Assembly: GCA_946480015.1 (NCBI GenBank)
Contig: CAMLIL010000164.1
Location: 1-6,003 of the forward strand
Reading direction: 5' to 3'
From: an uncultured Oxalobacteraceae bacterium
GTDB taxonomy: Bacteria > Pseudomonadota > Gammaproteobacteria > Burkholderiales > Burkholderiaceae
Length of the DNA stretch: 6,003 bases
Of this stretch, positions 1 through 6,003 are shown in pieces. Each line of letters starts with the position of its first letter. Within the stretch, counting starts at the first letter, position 1. The translations under genes were made by a program, and so were the position numbers. The notes under the pieces were generated by a model. The model was not told the origin of the DNA. It saw only the letters and a list, made by a program, of their open reading frames with translations, and made no database searches.

Positions 1-837
1 GTTGTGGCTGCCGCCGAAGGTGTGGCTCCAGGGCAGCCAGTCGAGCAGCACGGGCGGCTTGTCGCCCAGGCAGGGAAAGGTTTGCAGCAGCATTTGCTGG
101 TTGCTGCACAGCATACGCTGGGTGGTGATGACGGCCTTGGGCAGCTTGGTCGACCCGGACGTGAACAGGAACTTGGCGATGGTGTCCGGGCCGCTGGCGC
201 GGTTGGCCGCATCCACGGCCGTACGCGGGGTGGTGGCCAGCAGCGCGGCCAGCGGCATGCTGGCGCGCCCGGCGTCGCCATGATCGATGACGATCTGCAC
301 GTCGTCGGCCACGGTGGCCGCCAGCGCCTTGGCGCAGGCGCTGCCGTCGCTGGCGTAGACCATGCCGGGCGTGAGGTGTTTCACGAAATGGGCCAGCTTG
401 CTGAAATCGCCAGCCTGGGTGGAAGCGGCCGGCGACACCGGGCAATACGCAATGCCCGCATACATGGCGCCCAGCGCCAGTTGCAGGTGCTGCAAGTCGT
501 TGCCGGACAAGATCATCAGCGGGCGCTCGGCCGACAGGCCGCGGTCCAGCAGGGCCTGGCCGATGGCGCGCGCATCGGCCAGCATCTGGCGGTAACTGAT
601 GCTCTGCCACTGGCCGTCGGGACCGCGCCGCGCCGCCATGGTGCGCTCCGGATACTGCTCGGCGCCGCGCACCAGGCAGTCGGTCAGGCGCTCCGGATAG
701 GCGCCCAGCGCTTCGGTCGATACCAGGCGCCAGTTGCCGTGGCCATCGGCGGCCACCGTCACCGGCGCGCCGCCGACCCGGACCGGGCGGTAGCGCGACA
801 GGTTGAGCGCGCCGGCCGTAAGGGGGAGCTGGGTCAT
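1..837 (-). CDS. fcs: Feruloyl-CoA synthetase (4-hydroxycinnamate--CoA ligase), N-terminal part, runs off the left edge
   Basis: Adenylate-forming (ANL superfamily) ligase that activates ferulate, and usually p-coumarate and caffeate, to the CoA thioester with ATP; cytoplasmic first step of the pathway. I translated the minus strand from the ATG at 837-835: 279 codons are open to the window edge, and the family is usually about 600-630 residues, so roughly the C-terminal half is missing here. Seen: the phosphate-binding A3 motif TSGSTKLPKAV at residues 226-236, followed by a TTQRMLCSNQQM stretch, and a DWLPWSHTFGGSHN motif at 266-279; both are characteristic of feruloyl-CoA synthases rather than of general acyl-CoA ligases. 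The start is supported by an AAGGAG Shine-Dalgarno 9 nt upstream. It is third in the ech-vdh-fcs operon, 14 nt after the vdh stop. Oddity: Lys231 stands where many ANL enzymes have Gly in the A3 loop. Family assignment is firm; exact substrate range is inferred from the neighbours. Confidence 0.9.
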   Translation of the reverse strand, partial: MTQLPLTAGALNLSRYRPVRVGGAPVTVAADGHGNWRLVSTEALGAYPERLTDCLVRGAEQYPERTMAARRGPDGQWQSISYRQMLADARAIGQALLDRGLSAERPLMILSGNDLQHLQLALGAMYAGIAYCPVSPAASTQAGDFSKLAHFVKHLTPGMVYASDGSACAKALAATVADDVQIVIDHGDAGRASMPLAALLATTPRTAVDAANRASGPDTIAKFLFTSGSTKLPKAVITTQRMLCSNQQMLLQTFPCLGDKPPVLLDWLPWSHTFGGSHN

Positions 838-846
838 TGCGCAACG

Positions 847-852
847 CTCCTT
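847..852 (-). promoter_or_regulatory. Shine-Dalgarno of fcs, overlapping the vdh stop codon
   Basis: On the minus strand TGAAGGAG reads as the vdh stop (TGA, 854-852) running into AAGGAG, which shares the final A of the stop. It lies 9 nt before the fcs ATG. This geometry suggests translational coupling of vdh and fcs and decides the fcs start. Confidence 0.7.
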
Positions 853-2306
853 CAGACTGGATAGTGGCGATGGCCGCTCTGGATGGTGATCCAGCGCAGT
901 TCGGTAAATTCGGCAATGCCGGCCTTGCCGCCGAAGCGGCCGTAGCCGCTTGCCTTCACGCCCCCGAACGGCATTTGCGCTTCGTCCGCCACCGTGGAGC
1001 TGTTGATGTGGCAGATGCCCGATTCGACCCGGCGCGCCAGTGCCATCGCGCGCGCGACATCGCGGCTGAAAATCGCCGCCGACAGCCCGTATTCGCCGGC
1101 ATTGGCTTCGGCCAGCGCGGCTTCGTCGCCGTCGACCCGGACAATCGTGACGACGGGGCCGAACGATTCTTCCTGCACCACCGCCATGGCGGGCGTGACA
1201 TGGTCGAGGATGGCCGGTTGCAGCACGTTGCCGTCGTTTTCGGCCAGGCCGCAGACCAGGGTGGCGCCCTTGGCGACGGCGTCGCCGACCATGGCGGCCA
1301 CGCGCTGGGCGGCCGAGGCGTCGACCATGCCGCCCAATACCGCGCCTTCGGTACCCGGTTTGCCGGCGCGCAGGGTCGCCGTCTTGACGCGCAGTTTTTC
1401 GACGAACGCATCGGCCACCTTGTGATCGACGATGATGCGGTCGGTGGACATGCAGATCTGGCCCTGGTTGAAGAAGGCGCCGAAGGCGGCCGCCTGCACG
1501 GCTTCGTCGAGGTCGGCGTCGTCGAGAATCAGCAGCGGATTCTTGCCGCCCAGTTCCAGCACCACCGGTTTCAGGTGTTGCGCGGCTTGCAGGGCGATGA
1601 TGCGGCCCACCTTGGTCGAGCCGGTGAAGTTGACGCGTTTCACGGCAGGGTGGGCGATCAGGCGCGCCACCACGGCGGCGGCGTCCTGCGGCGCATTGCT
1701 CACCACATTGACCACGCCGGCCGGGAATCCGGCATCTTCGAACACCTTGCCGATCAGGCGGTGCAGGGCCGGGCACACTTCCGAGGACTTGAGCACCACG
1801 GTATTGCCGCAGGCAAGCGGCAGGGCGACGGCGCGGGTCCCCAGGATGACCGGCGCATTCCAGGGCGCGATGCCGAGCACCACGCCGCAGGCCTGGCGCA
1901 TGCCCATGGCCATCAGGCCCGGGACGTCCGACGGGATCACTTCGCCGCCGGTCTGGGTGGTCATGGCGGCGGCTTCGCGCAGCATGCCGGCGGCCAGCAT
2001 GACGTTGAAACCGTACCAGCCGGGCACGCCGCCCGCCTCGGCCACGCCCGCGGCGATGAATTCGGGCGCGCGCGCTTCGAGCGCGTCGGCAGCCTTGAGC
2101 AAGAGCTTGCGCCGTTCGCCCGGTCCCTTGGCGGACCAGGCCGGGAAGGCCGCCTGGGCGGCGGCGACGGCCGCGTCGGCATCGTCCAGGCTGGCGGCCG
2201 CCGCCACCGAGGCGGTGTCGCCGGTGGCGGGGTCGATGCGCTGGTAGGTGGCGCCGGTGGAGGCGGGGCGGTCCTGGCCGCCGATCAGCAAACGGGCTTC
2301 AAGCAT
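852..2306 (-). CDS. vdh: Vanillin dehydrogenase (aromatic aldehyde dehydrogenase, NAD(P)-dependent)
   Basis: Complete 484-residue aldehyde dehydrogenase superfamily enzyme, close to the roughly 480 residues usual for vanillin dehydrogenases. It oxidises vanillin to vanillate (with p-coumarate or caffeate as source, 4-hydroxybenzaldehyde or protocatechualdehyde) in the cytoplasm. Seen: APWNAP with the oxyanion-hole Asn150; the cofactor-binding VLKSSE lysine at 173; Rossmann-type FTGSTKVG at 227-234; LELGGKNP with general base Glu251; the nucleophile Cys285 in GQICMSTDR; EESFGPV with Glu380; and PFGGVKASGYGRFGG near the C-terminus. The GQICMSTDRI form of the active-site motif is the one seen in vanillin/benzaldehyde-type dehydrogenases. 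The start is supported by AGGAG 7 nt upstream of the ATG. It lies between ech, which makes the aldehyde, and fcs, which makes the CoA ester, so vanillin dehydrogenase is favoured over other aromatic aldehyde dehydrogenases; the precise substrate is inferred from context. Confidence 0.93.
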   Translation of the reverse strand: MLEARLLIGGQDRPASTGATYQRIDPATGDTASVAAAASLDDADAAVAAAQAAFPAWSAKGPGERRKLLLKAADALEARAPEFIAAGVAEAGGVPGWYGFNVMLAAGMLREAAAMTTQTGGEVIPSDVPGLMAMGMRQACGVVLGIAPWNAPVILGTRAVALPLACGNTVVLKSSEVCPALHRLIGKVFEDAGFPAGVVNVVSNAPQDAAAVVARLIAHPAVKRVNFTGSTKVGRIIALQAAQHLKPVVLELGGKNPLLILDDADLDEAVQAAAFGAFFNQGQICMSTDRIIVDHKVADAFVEKLRVKTATLRAGKPGTEGAVLGGMVDASAAQRVAAMVGDAVAKGATLVCGLAENDGNVLQPAILDHVTPAMAVVQEESFGPVVTIVRVDGDEAALAEANAGEYGLSAAIFSRDVARAMALARRVESGICHINSSTVADEAQMPFGGVKASGYGRFGGKAGIAEFTELRWITIQSGHRHYPV

Positions 2307-2313
2307 GGCGTAT

Positions 2314-2318
2314 CTCCT
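2314..2318 (-). promoter_or_regulatory. Shine-Dalgarno of vdh
   Basis: AGGAG on the minus strand, 7 nt before the vdh ATG at 2306-2304. It directly follows a CCA/CAC-rich near-repeat in the ech-vdh spacer and fixes the vdh start. Confidence 0.65.
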
Positions 2319-2335
2319 GGTGGTGATGGTGGTGG
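2318..2335 (-). repeat. Short imperfect 9-bp tandem (CCACCACCA / TCACCACCA) before the vdh ribosome-binding site
   Basis: The minus strand reads CCACCACCATCACCACCA, two 9-nt units differing at one position, inside the 43-nt ech-vdh spacer. Its last base is the first base of the vdh AGGAG. It is G-free on the mRNA strand and so probably unstructured, which could keep the ribosome-binding site accessible. No known element is recognised, and it may simply be low-complexity sequence. Confidence 0.4.
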
Positions 2336-2349
2336 CTGGTTGACGCGTC

Positions 2350-3183
2350 TCAGGCGCGTTTGTAGGTCTGCAGACCGGGCTTGATGGTCTTATCGTCCAG
2401 GAATTGCTTCAGGCCCTGGGCGCGTCCTTTTTCCGGATCGCGGTAATTGGACTGGTCGACCTTGGCGTACAGGTAGTCCTCGTTCTGTTCCCAGCTGAAT
2501 TCGCGGCAGCGCTTGAAACCGTTCTTGGCGATGCGCAGCACCACCGGCGCCTTTTCCAGCAGCTTGCCGGCCAGTTCGACCACGGCGGCGCGCAGCTCGG
2601 CGCGCGGCACGCTCTTGTTGACCAGCCCCATCTCGGCAGCTTGCTGGCCGGTAAAGGTGTCGCCGGTCATGATGTAATGCAGCGCGGCGCGATGGCCCAT
2701 GGTGTCGGCCACGGCCTTGCTGACCAGGTTACCCGGTGGAATACCCCAATTGATTTCCGACAGGCCGAACACCGCTTCGTCGGCGGCGATGGCCAGGTCG
2801 CAGGCCACCAGGGGCGAGAACGCGCCGCCGAAGCACCAGCCGTTGACCATGGCGATGGTCGGCTTGCTGTACATGCGCAGCAGCTTCCATTGCCACTGCG
2901 AGCAGTCGCGCCGCATTCTTTCCTGGTAGATTTCGGGCTGGCCGTCGGTTTCACGGAAGTATTCCTTCAAGTCCATGCCGGCCGTCCAGGCGTCGCCCGC
3001 GCCGGTCAGGACCAGCACGTGGGCGTCGTTGTCGAGCTCGATGGTTTCCAGGACGTCGATCATTTCGCGGTTCAGGGTCGGGCTCATGGCGTTGCGCTTC
3101 TCAGGGCGGTTCAGCGTGACCCAGGCGATGCCGTCGGCAACGTCCACTTTAACAGTACTCCAACGACTTTCGTAGCTGCTCAT
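2350..3183 (-). CDS. ech: p-Hydroxycinnamoyl-CoA hydratase/lyase (feruloyl-CoA hydratase/lyase)
   Basis: Complete 277-residue crotonase-superfamily enzyme that hydrates feruloyl-CoA and cleaves the adduct to vanillin and acetyl-CoA, shortening the side chain without beta-oxidation. Length and residues match the well-studied Pseudomonas HCHL/Ech (276 residues) almost position for position: Met70 and Gly120 sit where the oxyanion-hole backbone amides are expected, Ser123 and Glu143 (in LSEINWG) where the catalytic pair is expected, and Tyr239 where the residue recognising the 4-hydroxyl group is expected. Further hallmarks are VTLNRPEKRNAMS at 22-34, AGMDLKEYF at 68-76, NGWCFGGAFSPL at 114-125 and the C-terminal WEQNEDYLYAK. 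The ATG at 3183-3181 is preceded by AAAGAG, 8 nt away. It is the first gene of the ech-vdh-fcs operon and divergent from a MarR regulator. It is clearly this enzyme rather than a generic enoyl-CoA hydratase. Confidence 0.97.
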   Translation of the reverse strand: MSSYESRWSTVKVDVADGIAWVTLNRPEKRNAMSPTLNREMIDVLETIELDNDAHVLVLTGAGDAWTAGMDLKEYFRETDGQPEIYQERMRRDCSQWQWKLLRMYSKPTIAMVNGWCFGGAFSPLVACDLAIAADEAVFGLSEINWGIPPGNLVSKAVADTMGHRAALHYIMTGDTFTGQQAAEMGLVNKSVPRAELRAAVVELAGKLLEKAPVVLRIAKNGFKRCREFSWEQNEDYLYAKVDQSNYRDPEKGRAQGLKQFLDDKTIKPGLQTYKRA

Positions 3184-3216
3184 TTTGATTTCTCTTTATA
3201 GTAAATTAATCTCAGG

Positions 3217-3244
3217 TTGCTTGATATGTGCTTTATATTATATT
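3217..3244 (+). promoter_or_regulatory. Predicted promoter of the marR gene, overlapping the ech promoter
   Basis: The plus strand shows TTGCTT (3217-3222) and TATATT (3239-3244, 5 of 6 consensus bases) with a 16-nt spacer. The -35 is weak (3 of 6); an alternative -35, TTGATA at 3221-3226, has a better hexamer but no well-spaced -10. Transcription would begin near 3251, inside the 3250-3264 inverted repeat, which would allow autoregulation. The -10 elements of the two divergent promoters overlap on opposite strands. Confidence 0.4.
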
Positions 3245-3264
3245 CTGCGTTGCCCGCCAGGCAA
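3237..3264 (-). promoter_or_regulatory. Predicted sigma70-type promoter of the ech-vdh-fcs operon
   Basis: The minus strand shows a perfect -10 TATAAT (3242-3237) and a -35-like TTGCCT (3264-3259, 4 of 6 consensus bases) separated by 16 nt, in an AT-rich gap between two GC-rich genes. The start point would fall near 3230, leaving an untranslated leader of about 45 nt with an AAAGAG ribosome site. Predicted by eye; no experimental support. Confidence 0.6.
3250..3264. promoter_or_regulatory. 15-bp inverted repeat, candidate operator for the MarR regulator
   Basis: The plus strand reads TTGCCCGCCAGGCAA: perfect 5-bp arms TTGCC/GGCAA around a 5-bp centre. Size and symmetry fit a dimeric winged-helix regulator. 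It contains the ech -35 element and part of the spacer, and covers the predicted marR start point, so a bound repressor would block both genes. Assignment to this MarR protein is inference from position. Confidence 0.45.
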
Positions 3265-3292
3265 GGGCTTTTTACATACATTCCTTTACGTT

Positions 3293-3751
3293 ATGAAACA
3301 TCATCCGAGCACCGCCGAAGCCAACAAACCCAGCGGCATTGCCTATCTGATCGGCCGGCTCGACCACGTGCTCAGCCGGCGGCTGCGCGACAGCCTCGGC
3401 GGCCTGGGCTTGACGGCTGCCCAGTACACCGCGCTGTCGGTCCTGCACACCCAGCAGCAGCTGTCCAATGCCCAGCTGGCCGAGCGTTCGATGATTTCGC
3501 CCCAGGCCGCCAACGAAATGGTCAAGGCGATGGAAGCGAAAGGCTGGATCGCGCGCCAGCCGGACGCCAATCACGGCCGCATCATTCATTTGCGCCTGAC
3601 CGAGCAGGGCGTGGCCCTGTTGCGCGAGGGCGACGCCGCCGTGGCGGTGCTCGAACGCACCATGCTGGCCGGGTTTGACGACGCCGCCCGCGGCGACCTG
3701 CACGCCCAGCTGCGTGCGCTGCTGCGTTCGCTGAGCGCCATCGTTCTCTAA
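3293..3751 (+). CDS. MarR-family transcriptional regulator, probable hydroxycinnamate-responsive repressor (FerC/FerR-like)
   Basis: 152-residue winged-helix protein, the normal MarR length. An N-terminal dimerisation helix region (about 12-38) precedes the conserved LTAAQYTALSVL segment (40-51). The helix-turn-helix SNAQLAERSMISPQAANEMVKAMEAKGWI lies at 58-86, and the wing has the family signature with D91, H94, G95, R96 and the LT pair at 102-103. A C-terminal helical tail follows. I start at the ATG at 3293: the reading frame opens further upstream with a TTG at 3185, but that extension would cover the promoter region and encodes nothing MarR-like. No clear Shine-Dalgarno precedes the ATG, suggesting low expression. 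MarR proteins divergent from ferulate genes (FerC in Sphingobium, FerR in Pseudomonas) respond to feruloyl-CoA or related thioesters; the same role here is inferred from position. It converges on the fusion gene with a 5-bp gap. Confidence 0.9.
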   Translation: MKHHPSTAEANKPSGIAYLIGRLDHVLSRRLRDSLGGLGLTAAQYTALSVLHTQQQLSNAQLAERSMISPQAANEMVKAMEAKGWIARQPDANHGRIIHLRLTEQGVALLREGDAAVAVLERTMLAGFDDAARGDLHAQLRALLRSLSAIVL

Positions 3752-3756
3752 CTCCC

Positions 3757-6003
3757 TCATGGCCAGTACGCCGGGCGCAACTGGTCCGGCGTACCGGCGT
3801 AACCGTGCGTCACGGCGAAAGCGGCCAGTTCGCGCGGCGACTCGCCCACGCCGAACAGCGACCACACAAACATGCGGGCATACAGCTCGCAGCGTTCCTG
3901 TCCCGACAACGCCGGGTCGGCCGCCAGCCGGGCCTTGAGTGCGGCCAGGCTGTTGTGCTGGACCTCCATGCGCACGCCGCCGCCGGCGCTGGTATCGAAC
4001 ACCATCAGGCGCCGCTGCGCGTCCCAGCGCTGCCACTCGGGGCCAGGCGCACCGTGGCGCGCGAGGGCGGTCCAGTAGCCGGCCATGGCGTCCGAGACTT
4101 CCTTGCGGCCAGGGCGGTTGGCGGCAGTGAAGGAGCGGAACGGATCGAATTCGCCGTCCAGGTCGCGGAACACGAACGCCATCTCCAGCACATGGGCCGC
4201 GCCCAGCAGCAGCGCAGGCTGGATCAGCGGCACGGAAGGCTGCTCGTCCCAGTCGAAGCGGTAGACCCACACATCGGCATGGCCCGACGCGGCCATGGCG
4301 GAAGCCGGCTCCAGTGCGCCCGAGGTTTGCCACAGCGCCGACATGTACTCGGCGTGGCGCTGGTAGCGCGCGCGGTTGCGCATCACCGGGATACTGCCGA
4401 ACAGCATGCGCACGTAGGCCGGGTTGTTGGACATGAAGATCTTGTACTCGTCGCGGTTGGTGCCGATGATGGTCGGCACCGCGTGGTAGCGGCCGCGCTC
4501 CAGGAACACGTCGGCCAGCGGCATGGCGGGCAGCACGTGGCCGTCCTGGAACACGTACGGCGCGTCGTAGAAACTGAGCGCGCCCGGCGTGATGGGCGCC
4601 AGCAGCGCTTCCGGCGCCAGGCCGCGCACGAAGGCGGCGATTTCCGCTGGCGGCATGGATGCGATGATGGCCTTGGCAGCTTCGCGGTCGGCGGCGCGGC
4701 CGGCGCGCTGCAGCCATTGGCACAGCAGCTCGCGCGAGCTGAGCGCATGCCCCGGCCGGGCGTCATCGGTGTAGTTGCGCGCCTGCGCCATGCTGGCGCT
4801 GAGCGTGAAGGGCGACTGCAGGATGGCTTTGTGGAACAGCCCTTTGGCCAAGGGACTGGCCAGCAGGGTGTACACGTTCAGGGCGCCGGCCGATTCACCG
4901 AAGATCGTCACGTTGTCCGGATCGCCGCCGAAGGCGCCGATATGCTGCTGCACCCATTCGAGCGCGGCGATCAGGTCGAGCGTGCCAAAGTTACCGGAGC
5001 GGTCGGCCGCGCTGTCGCCGTCCTGCGCCAGTTCGGCGAGGCTGAACCAGCCCAGGATGCCGAGACGGTAATTGGCCGACACCACGATCACGTCGTCCTG
5101 GCCGGCCAGGTTGCGCAAGGTGGTGTAGGTGGACGCGGTGCCGGCGGTGTTGGCGCCGCCGTGAATCCAGAACATCACCGGGCGCCGGCTGGCCGATGCC
5201 GCGTCCGGCGTCATGCAGGGTGCATAAATATTCAGGCTCAGGCAGTCTTCCGATCCGGCCGGCTTGCCCCATCGGGCGGGCGGCAGTTCCAGCGTAATGC
5301 CGCCCAGCTGCAGCGCCGGCGCGCCGCTGGCGACCGCCTCGCGCACGCCGCTCCAGGCCAGCGGCGCGCGCGGCGCCTTCCAGCGCAGGGCGCCGACCGG
5401 CGGCTGGGCGTAGGGAATGCCCAGCCAGGCGTGGGTGCCGTTGGTCTCGGCGCGGCCGATCAGATCACCGAGGGCAGTCGAACGCAGGGCCTCTGGATCG
5501 GGCCGCTGCGCCGCCTTGTGCGGCATCAGGAAGTGCGCCAGCGCCGGCACCAGCACCAGCGCGCCGACCATGTTCCAGATGAACATGAAGGCCAGCAGGA
5601 TGCCCATATCGGCCTGAAATTTGATCGGCGAGAACAGCCAGGTAGCCACCGCCACGGCCAGGGTCACGCCGGTCAGGATCACGACCCGGCCGGTAAAGCG
5701 CAGCGCGTGCAGGTAGGCGTCGGACAGGGTGGCGCCGGCGCGCATGCGGGTCAGCATCACGCTCAGTACATACAGCGCGTAGTCAACGCCGATGCCCACG
5801 CCGAGGGCGATCACCGGCAGGGTGGCCACCTTGACGCCCATGCCCAGCACCACCATCAGCACTTCGCACAGGATCGAGGTGAGCACCAGCGGCAGCACCG
5901 CCACCAGCACCGCGCGCCATGAGCGGAAGGTGGCATAGCACAGCAGGATCACCGCGCCGTAGACCCAGAACAGCATGTCGTGCATGGCCTTCTTGACGAC
6001 GAT
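3757..6003 (-). CDS. RND/MMPL-type transporter C-terminus fused in frame to a type-B carboxylesterase (5' end outside window)
   Basis: One open frame of 748 codons plus stop, still open at the right edge. Residues are numbered from the first in-window ATG (5985-5983), six codons inside the frame and not the true start. Residues 1-153 are the end of an RND/MMPL permease: about five hydrophobic segments (near 4-20, 25-51, 53-81, 99-118, 126-153), with GVGIGVDYALY at 62-72 and FQADMGILLAFMFIWNM at 123-139. A short linker (about 155-171) leads into a complete carboxylesterase (172-742): LGIPYAQPPVGALRW at 188-202, SEDCLSLNIYAP at 245-256, oxyanion HGG at 275-277, nucleophile Ser365 in GESAG, Glu513 in GTNRDEYKIF, and His598 in LGAAHVLEM. 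The triad is intact. The esterase has no signal peptide or supported start: the nearest in-frame ATG (residue 154, 5526-5524) lacks a ribosome site and lies at the end of the last helix. RND proteins end in the cytoplasm, so the esterase is predicted cytoplasmic and membrane-tethered. Possible roles are hydrolysis of imported phenolic esters or detoxification; both are inferred from context. A sequencing or assembly artefact at the junction remains possible. Confidence 0.82.
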   Translation of the reverse strand: MVVKKAMHDMLFWVYGAVILLCYATFRSWRAVLVAVLPLVLTSILCEVLMVVLGMGVKVATLPVIALGVGIGVDYALYVLSVMLTRMRAGATLSDAYLHALRFTGRVVILTGVTLAVAVATWLFSPIKFQADMGILLAFMFIWNMVGALVLVPALAHFLMPHKAAQRPDPEALRSTALGDLIGRAETNGTHAWLGIPYAQPPVGALRWKAPRAPLAWSGVREAVASGAPALQLGGITLELPPARWGKPAGSEDCLSLNIYAPCMTPDAASASRRPVMFWIHGGANTAGTASTYTTLRNLAGQDDVIVVSANYRLGILGWFSLAELAQDGDSAADRSGNFGTLDLIAALEWVQQHIGAFGGDPDNVTIFGESAGALNVYTLLASPLAKGLFHKAILQSPFTLSASMAQARNYTDDARPGHALSSRELLCQWLQRAGRAADREAAKAIIASMPPAEIAAFVRGLAPEALLAPITPGALSFYDAPYVFQDGHVLPAMPLADVFLERGRYHAVPTIIGTNRDEYKIFMSNNPAYVRMLFGSIPVMRNRARYQRHAEYMSALWQTSGALEPASAMAASGHADVWVYRFDWDEQPSVPLIQPALLLGAAHVLEMAFVFRDLDGEFDPFRSFTAANRPGRKEVSDAMAGYWTALARHGAPGPEWQRWDAQRRLMVFDTSAGGGVRMEVQHNSLAALKARLAADPALSGQERCELYARMFVWSLFGVGESPRELAAFAVTHGYAGTPDQLRPAYWP

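Follow-up and report, generated by a model that had tools for sequence, protein, structure and literature searches.

The closest described relative of the system treated here is AmeABCD of Castellaniella defragrans, which consists of a DUF1302 protein, a DUF1329 protein, a YCF48/COG4447-like protein, and an RND permease of the HAE3 lineage (PMC6394551). According to the accessible part of that study, deletion of ameABCD lowers biomass yield and monoterpene tolerance and raises the net influx of dye; its authors describe HAE3 pumps as carrying substrates to the periplasm (PMC6394551). The permease AmeD comprises 787 residues and is involved in monoterpene metabolism; the word "esterase" is absent from the main text of the study (PMC6394551). 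The present work concerns a stretch of 6,003 nucleotides from an uncultured Oxalobacteraceae bacterium (assembly GCA_946480015.1, contig CAMLIL010000164.1, positions 1 to 6,003), referred to as the window, in which an RND permease continues in frame into a type-B carboxylesterase. AmeABCD shares its four components, their order, and its setting in a catabolic cluster with the loci related to the window, as far as the accessible text describes them (PMC6394551). In contrast to AmeABCD, the present cluster appears to be directed at phenylpropanoids, and its permease bears a type-B esterase.

A second related system is found in Pseudomonas putida. The accessible part of PMC10866462 reports PP_0765 (DUF1302) and PP_0766 (DUF1329) to be essential for Tween 20 metabolism, with PP_2018 and PP_2019 being correlated. 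Together, these genes encode a DUF1302 protein, a DUF1329 protein, a periplasmic protein, and a transporter of the multidrug-efflux type, like the present cassette. They are distributed over two loci, and no fusion is described in that part of the text; the substrate Tween 20 is itself an ester (PMC10866462).

The esterase of the window has its fold, the serine in the GESAG motif, and the positions of the triad in common with pNB esterase (1qe3), Est55 (2ogs), and a polyurethane-degrading esterase (8wdm). These three are stand-alone enzymes, whereas the window enzyme is joined behind an RND permease. Regarding the genomic context, the ferulate and coniferyl alcohol clusters of Pseudomonas contain fcs-ech-vdh and calA-calB. 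The present cluster shares with them a coniferyl-alcohol dehydrogenase (in the related locus L001) and Ech (in the window), with an acyl-CoA synthetase and aldehyde dehydrogenases adjoining, but adds an AmeABCD-type transporter with an attached esterase. The fusion protein extends the known AmeABCD-like transporter type. Both halves have already been named by automatic annotation, one protein cluster being listed by the Joint Genome Institute (JGI) as "predicted RND superfamily exporter protein/carboxylesterase type B", and no description of an RND-esterase fusion was found in the open PMC library.

The fused reading frame

The fusion gene lies on the minus strand and leaves the window at its end. 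The following features were assigned to it:

3757..6003, minus strand: frame of the fusion gene, 748 codons without a stop, exiting the window end
5521..6003, minus strand: C-terminal part of the RND permease, residues 1-161, transmembrane helices TM8-TM12 by position (PF03176, structural model, and the database protein P0128)
5779..5784, minus strand: Asp74-Tyr75 in GVGIGVDY (TM10 by position), a putative proton-relay pair; motif present in 28 of 28 RND rows
5488..5520, minus strand: linker, residues 162-172, mostly coil in the model (alignments and AlphaFold2 model)
3757..5487, minus strand: type-B carboxylesterase half, residues 173-748 and stop codon (PF00135, model confidence, and PDB matches)
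4891..4893, minus strand: codon of the putative catalytic Ser371 (GESAG), invariant in 58 rows and aligned with GESAG of 8wdm
4447..4449, minus strand: codon of the putative catalytic acid Glu519 (NRDEY), invariant in 58 rows and aligned with NKDEY of 8wdm
4192..4194, minus strand: codon of the putative catalytic His604 (GAAHVLE), invariant in 58 rows and aligned with GACHALE of 8wdm

A first-pass annotation, made from the letters of the window, had claimed an in-frame fusion of an RND transporter to a type-B carboxylesterase with family motifs retained on both sides of the junction. Both claims are borne out. One open frame encodes both Pfam domains: MMPL (PF03176) covers residues 20-159 with an E value of 1.4e-9, and COesterase (PF00135) starts at residue 175 with an E value of 1.9e-86. 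The motifs on either side are intact. The last helix ends in FLMP (residues 158-161, nucleotides 5532-5521), and RSTALGD begins at residue 174 (nucleotide 5484), so that the junction had been placed correctly to within about 10 bases. The linker measures about 11 residues and not the 17 or so originally proposed.

The first 618 residues of the protein are encoded upstream, beyond the window. They are known from P0128, a database protein of 1366 residues whose C-terminal 748 residues are identical to the window frame, which shows that the remainder of the permease does exist. Its computed mass of 148.2 kDa falls within the 140-150 kDa predicted for the product.

A further open frame of 705 codons runs antisense to the fusion gene (3805..5922, plus strand). 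It most likely represents a shadow frame caused by the GC richness of the coding DNA.

The permease half and the esterase half

P0128 matches MMPL in two stretches with 77.4 bits (gathering score 20.5). The HAE3 model TIGR00921 is its best NCBIfam match, albeit with 149.9 bits against a cutoff of 351.9. RND permeases typically have twelve transmembrane helices and two large periplasmic loops. For P0128, hydropathy analysis yields 13 segments, of which two are read as spurious (176-194 and 1211-1229), while TM4 is missed, and indicates large loops near residues 50-238 and 446-623. For the window part, an AlphaFold2 model with a mean predicted local distance difference test (pLDDT) score of 87.9 and a predicted template modelling (pTM) score of 0.82 places five helices, at residues 2-26, 29-52, 59-88, 93-124, and 128-159, all before the linker. 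The pLDDT of these permease helices, averaged over blocks of ten, is 54-69. MmpL-type pumps carry Asp-Tyr in both the TM4 and the TM10 motif and use these residues for protons. In P0128 and its relatives, the TM10 motif (residues 686-693) contains Asp-Tyr in 28 of 28 RND rows, and the TM4 motif (residues 301-310, FAIGMSHGAQ) contains Ser-His in the same number.

The esterase half of P0128 matches COesterase with 288.6 bits (gathering score 27), and its blocks in the model mostly exceed a pLDDT of 90. Ser371, Glu519, and His604 are presumed to form the catalytic triad. The top PDB matches are 8wdm (34% identity), mouse Ces2b, pNB esterase, and Est55.

Distribution of the fusion

The RND-esterase protein is a real and conserved two-domain architecture. 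A database search with a Duganella phyllosphaerae homologue of 1399 residues as query, scored on residues 800-1300, matched 477 proteins, and among the best 120 of these, 14 clusters contain both PF03176 and PF00135 (P0001 and P0121-P0133, with P0128 being that of the window). Thus, proteins spanning the junction occur in 13 clusters besides the window's own, and a fusion restricted to the window was ruled out. This search scored 7994 candidates, so rarer fusions may escape it; in a separate search with 7996 scored candidates, a length limit excluded full-length fusions.

In the genus of Duganella phyllosphaerae, the esterase (E 1e-100 or better) is present in 18 of 74 genomes, 12 of which have a single open frame of at least 1376 residues, while six have none. 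A family-wide sample of 392 genomes, with at most three candidates scored per genome, gave 15 matches and two new cases, one fused (G360) and one unfused (G384). In total, 13 of 20 genomes with a close esterase carry the fused and seven the unfused form, the window's genome being counted apart. A scan of genome contigs covering 80 of 577 loci found three with an MMPL match near the esterase, one of them fused.

The fused relatives bear directly on the concern that the junction might be an assembly error, a frameshift, or a strain-specific mutation, which would leave all close relatives with two separate genes. Not all close relatives have separate genes, although seven of the 20 do. Similar junctions occur in the 13 fused genomes, two of which have it on contigs as long as 6.9 and 7.5 Mb, and in the 13 other clusters, and coding is constrained on both sides of the junction. 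The junction is therefore neither a chance event nor an error specific to the window, and an assembly error or a decayed gene was ruled out on these grounds; no evidence in favour of this explanation was found, and it is almost certainly wrong.

When the RND half was used as query, matches of at least 80% identity were obtained in 18 of the 74 genomes, exactly those bearing the esterase. The remaining RND matches in the 74 genomes show 49-79% identity and lie in frames of 789-1231 residues, shorter than the fusion. Second RND copies are present in G059 (contig C1, 6301847-6304213, 79% identity, 828-residue frame) and G036 (contig C98, 32069-34447, 72% identity, 815-residue frame), both too short to include an esterase.

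Variation is also seen at the other end of the protein. In L121 (genome G028) and P0129, the fused esterase is about 50 C-terminal residues shorter than in others, the frame ending in WP. Related type-B esterases are located at the C-terminus of other membrane proteins in P0142 (47% identity) and P0143 (45%), the partners being an apolipoprotein N-acyltransferase-like protein and a PTPS-related membrane protein, respectively. Fusions between such esterases and membrane proteins may be more widespread. In P0239 of Piscinibacter sakaiensis, a single protein contains a tannase/feruloyl esterase domain and, C-terminal to it, a type-B carboxylesterase.

Unfused relatives and history of the fusion

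The RND and esterase genes are separate neighbours in all seven unfused loci. In L115-L118, a gene for a methyl-accepting chemotaxis protein is located between them, and the chemoreceptors of L115, L117, and L118 share 79-91% identity with that of L116. The same gene order is found in Paucibacter (L007), a member of another family, with the chemoreceptor encoded at 7391-9073 and sharing 40% identity with that of L116 over 298 residues. The occupation of the same slot in L115-L118 and Paucibacter suggests that RND-chemoreceptor-esterase is the older order, and a chemoreceptor in this position suggests that it senses the same substrate as the transporter and the esterase. In L114, the RND stop codon overlaps the esterase start, seemingly also in L128, and in L122 a short gap separates the two genes.

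Both halves of the fusion are under purifying selection. In 13 pairs chosen among 14 fused genes, the ratio of nonsynonymous to synonymous substitution rates (dN/dS) is 0.04-0.17 for the RND half, where the three pairs involving the window cover 161 codons only, and 0.15-0.34 for the esterase half. The linker evolves fast, with a dN of 0.10-0.69 over 10-25 aligned codons per pair, but always remains in frame. Its length ranges from 10 to about 40 residues across the aligned fused rows.

Trees were calculated for 28 rows, comprising the 20 loci, L007 as outgroup, the window protein, and six of the 13 other fused clusters. On both the RND and the esterase tree, fused and unfused rows are intermingled, with five changes of state each (four on a quick esterase tree). 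A single clade of all fused rows was rejected by the approximately unbiased (AU) test, with p values of 7e-50 (RND) and 5e-42 (esterase). For a single fused clade within a larger clade, which was delimited after the trees had been seen, rejection was obtained on the esterase tree (p 0.0002) and not on the RND tree (p 0.075). The fusion probably arose more than once, and repeated fusion is favoured by the chemoreceptor occupying the same slot in L115-L118 and Paucibacter; the tree tests are also compatible with a single gain and subsequent splits, or with a transfer among strains. P0127 and L119 have a nearly identical linker and are counted as one event, although L115, which is unfused, falls in the same group. 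How many fusion events took place is something that we infer.

The fusion might be incidental, i.e., operon neighbours were merged by deletion and the product was tolerated, with the halves working independently or being cleaved apart after translation. The adjacency of the genes in all unfused loci, the overlapping stop and start codons of L114 and seemingly L128, the interspersed states on both trees, and the fast linker are all in line with such an accident. However, the fusion has persisted in two groups that have diverged from each other, under constraint on both halves, and RND ortholog and esterase coincide in the same 18 of 74 genomes of one genus. An incidental fusion appears rather unlikely.

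Membrane side of the esterase

RND permeases have a cytoplasmic C-terminus, which places an esterase attached to it at the cytoplasmic face, provided that the fused permease follows the usual topology. The unfused relatives allow a comparison. It had been assumed that type-B esterases usually start with a signal peptide; this applies to many distant relatives, which have lipoprotein-like or hydrophobic N-termini, and not to the closest unfused ones. The unfused esterases of L115, L116, L118, and L122 have a short hydrophobic N-terminus followed by Arg or Lys, and those of L114, L117, and L128 have no hydrophobic N-terminal segment. The anchor of L117 (genome G048) seems to be partly deleted, with MPDILL passing straight into HAADSLR.

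Among ten unfused database proteins, five have a segment above the threshold, with no Lys or Arg before it and one to four in the next 12 residues. A similar N-terminal segment below the threshold is present in P0008 and P0017, while P0002, P0003, and P0013 have none as annotated; in P0013 (L118), the anchor lies upstream of the annotated start. By the positive-inside rule, basic residues mark the cytoplasmic side. The distribution of charges therefore points to a cytoplasmic unfused enzyme, which would be on the same side as the C-terminus of the RND permease.

A periplasmic esterase, resulting from an unusual topology of the fused permease, would agree with the lipoprotein-like N-termini of many distant relatives and with a hydropathy helix count that is not clean. 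Nevertheless, the model has five helices ahead of the linker, and the close unfused orthologs either lack a secretion signal or have segment charges that direct the C-terminus inward, making a periplasmic location very unlikely.

Gene neighbourhood

Four further genes were assigned in the window:

3185..3751, plus strand: MarR-type regulator, convergent with the fusion gene (PF01047, E 4.2e-14)
2350..3183, minus strand: p-hydroxycinnamoyl-CoA hydratase/lyase (Ech, ferulate type; NCBIfam NF006588, 495.9 bits, cutoff 276)
852..2306, minus strand: aldehyde dehydrogenase, probably vanillin dehydrogenase, as named from the context (matches to aldehyde dehydrogenase models)
1..846, minus strand: acyl-CoA synthetase, cut by the window end (NF009232, E 4.3e-75, below the cutoff for this partial protein)

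The acyl-CoA synthetase is probably a feruloyl-CoA synthetase, a name also taken from the context. For the aldehyde dehydrogenase, none of the 25 models shown reached its cutoff. The listed TTG start of the marR gene is perhaps too far upstream. Judged from these assignments, the cluster looks able to process ferulate. Neither the thiolase described below nor a chemoreceptor is encoded in the window.

In the 20 related loci, the gene order, as far as each locus reaches, is aldehyde dehydrogenase, short-chain dehydrogenase/reductase (SDR), DUF1302, DUF1329, YCF48-like, RND, and esterase, the Pfam assignments of DUF1302 and DUF1329 having been made on L001. All 20 loci have RND directly upstream of the esterase, and DUF1302-DUF1329-YCF48 precedes RND in 19, L123 beginning inside the YCF48-like gene. 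The SDR, a relative of coniferyl-alcohol dehydrogenase, is found in 18 of the 20; L115, which ends inside the DUF1302 gene, and L123 are cut. In L001, the SDR matches the coniferyl-alcohol dehydrogenase model with 404.2 bits (cutoff 242). The window ends short of these genes, and its genome presumably has the cassette before RND, as in the related loci. In L009, the esterase adjoins a coniferyl-alcohol-dehydrogenase relative.

Downstream of the esterase, marR and ech follow in nine of the 20 loci (L114-L121 and L127), as in the window; in six of these nine, a thiolase gene separates the esterase from marR. In the other 11 loci, the stretch covered, which reaches about 3.3 to 8.3 kb past the esterase, shows no ferulate set, apart from a synthetase fragment of 56% identity and a crotonase of 28% in L128. 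L128 also has a thiolase, as does L124.

Proposed function

With moderate confidence, we propose that the fusion protein is part of an envelope-spanning phenylpropanoid transporter whose permease bears an esterase on the cytoplasmic side, where aromatic esters would be cut to feed the pathway. Topology, substrate, transport direction, and the benefit of coupling are what we infer from the comparisons above. A single polypeptide would comprise an AmeD-like (HAE3-like) RND permease and, after its last helix, the type-B carboxylesterase. The permease would form the inner-membrane part of an AmeABCD-type cassette, with the DUF1302 protein as outer-membrane barrel and the DUF1329 LolA-like and YCF48-like proteins as periplasmic partners, and the esterase would hang at the inner face of the inner membrane. 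The system would handle hydrophobic phenylpropanoid esters, such as feruloyl or coniferyl esters, which the esterase would cut at the membrane. The products would be passed to the cytoplasmic pathway, where the neighbouring genes may convert coniferyl alcohol and, in the window and the nine loci, ferulate. The fusion would have been formed from neighbouring RND and esterase genes through loss of the chemoreceptor gene, the esterase anchor, or both.

Aromatic esters of ferulate or coniferyl compounds are the likeliest substrates because of the ferulate cluster, the relatives of coniferyl-alcohol dehydrogenase, and an esterase tied to a transporter. The adjacency in L009, the gene order of Paucibacter, and the fusion in P0239 are indirect hints in agreement with this assignment. 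A possible feruloyl esterase activity of the enzyme itself is suggested by the gene context and P0239 only.

Several points weigh against the proposed phenylpropanoid transporter. The helix count from hydropathy is not clean, the model has low confidence in the permease helices, and the HAE3 cutoff was not reached. The unfused state occurs in seven of 20 genomes, and the many distant relatives with lipoprotein-like starts indicate that the family as a whole has no fixed location for the esterase. Fewer than half of the loci have adjoining ferulate genes, and the 11 described above lack the set within the stretch covered. The closest structure, a polyurethane-degrading esterase, is little guide to the natural substrate. 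Finally, RND pumps are usually exporters, a habit that favours export and renders uptake uncertain. The catabolic setting and the Tween 20 report, in the accessible part of PMC10866462, favour uptake; the AmeABCD data, in that of PMC6394551, favour export.

The system may instead be a tolerance pump. In that case, toxic phenolics would leave through the RND permease, esters would be detoxified or recycled in the cytoplasm by the esterase, and the system would play no part in uptake. The loss of monoterpene tolerance and the rise in net dye influx upon ameABCD deletion fit this explanation, as does the transport into the periplasm ascribed to HAE3 pumps (accessible part of PMC6394551). In contrast, the cassette sits among catabolic genes, and the requirement for the P. 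putida counterpart on Tween 20 fits nutrient handling at least equally well, according to the accessible part of PMC10866462. A pure tolerance function is considered unlikely. The phenylpropanoid transporter could also be extended to an import-and-trap system, where an RND permease working in the uptake direction feeds phenylpropanoid esters via an AmeABCD-like route to the tethered cytoplasmic esterase, the products enter the ferulate/coniferyl pathway directly, and the coupling was selected several times by deletion of the chemoreceptor gene. This extended version is rather unlikely to hold in full.

Implications

The fusion provides a single-gene handle on such systems, as one host can serve to compare the fused protein with split and active-site-mutant versions, and the natural fused and unfused orthologs at the same cluster position offer a ready comparison. 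The enzyme is possibly useful for work on lignin-derived aromatics and vanillin. For AmeABCD-like cassettes in catabolic clusters, the direction of substrate movement is left unsettled in the accessible parts of PMC6394551 and PMC10866462. An esterase bound covalently to the permease gives an indication of the substrate class, namely an ester that yields products for the neighbouring pathway, and also of the side of the membrane where the substrate is met.

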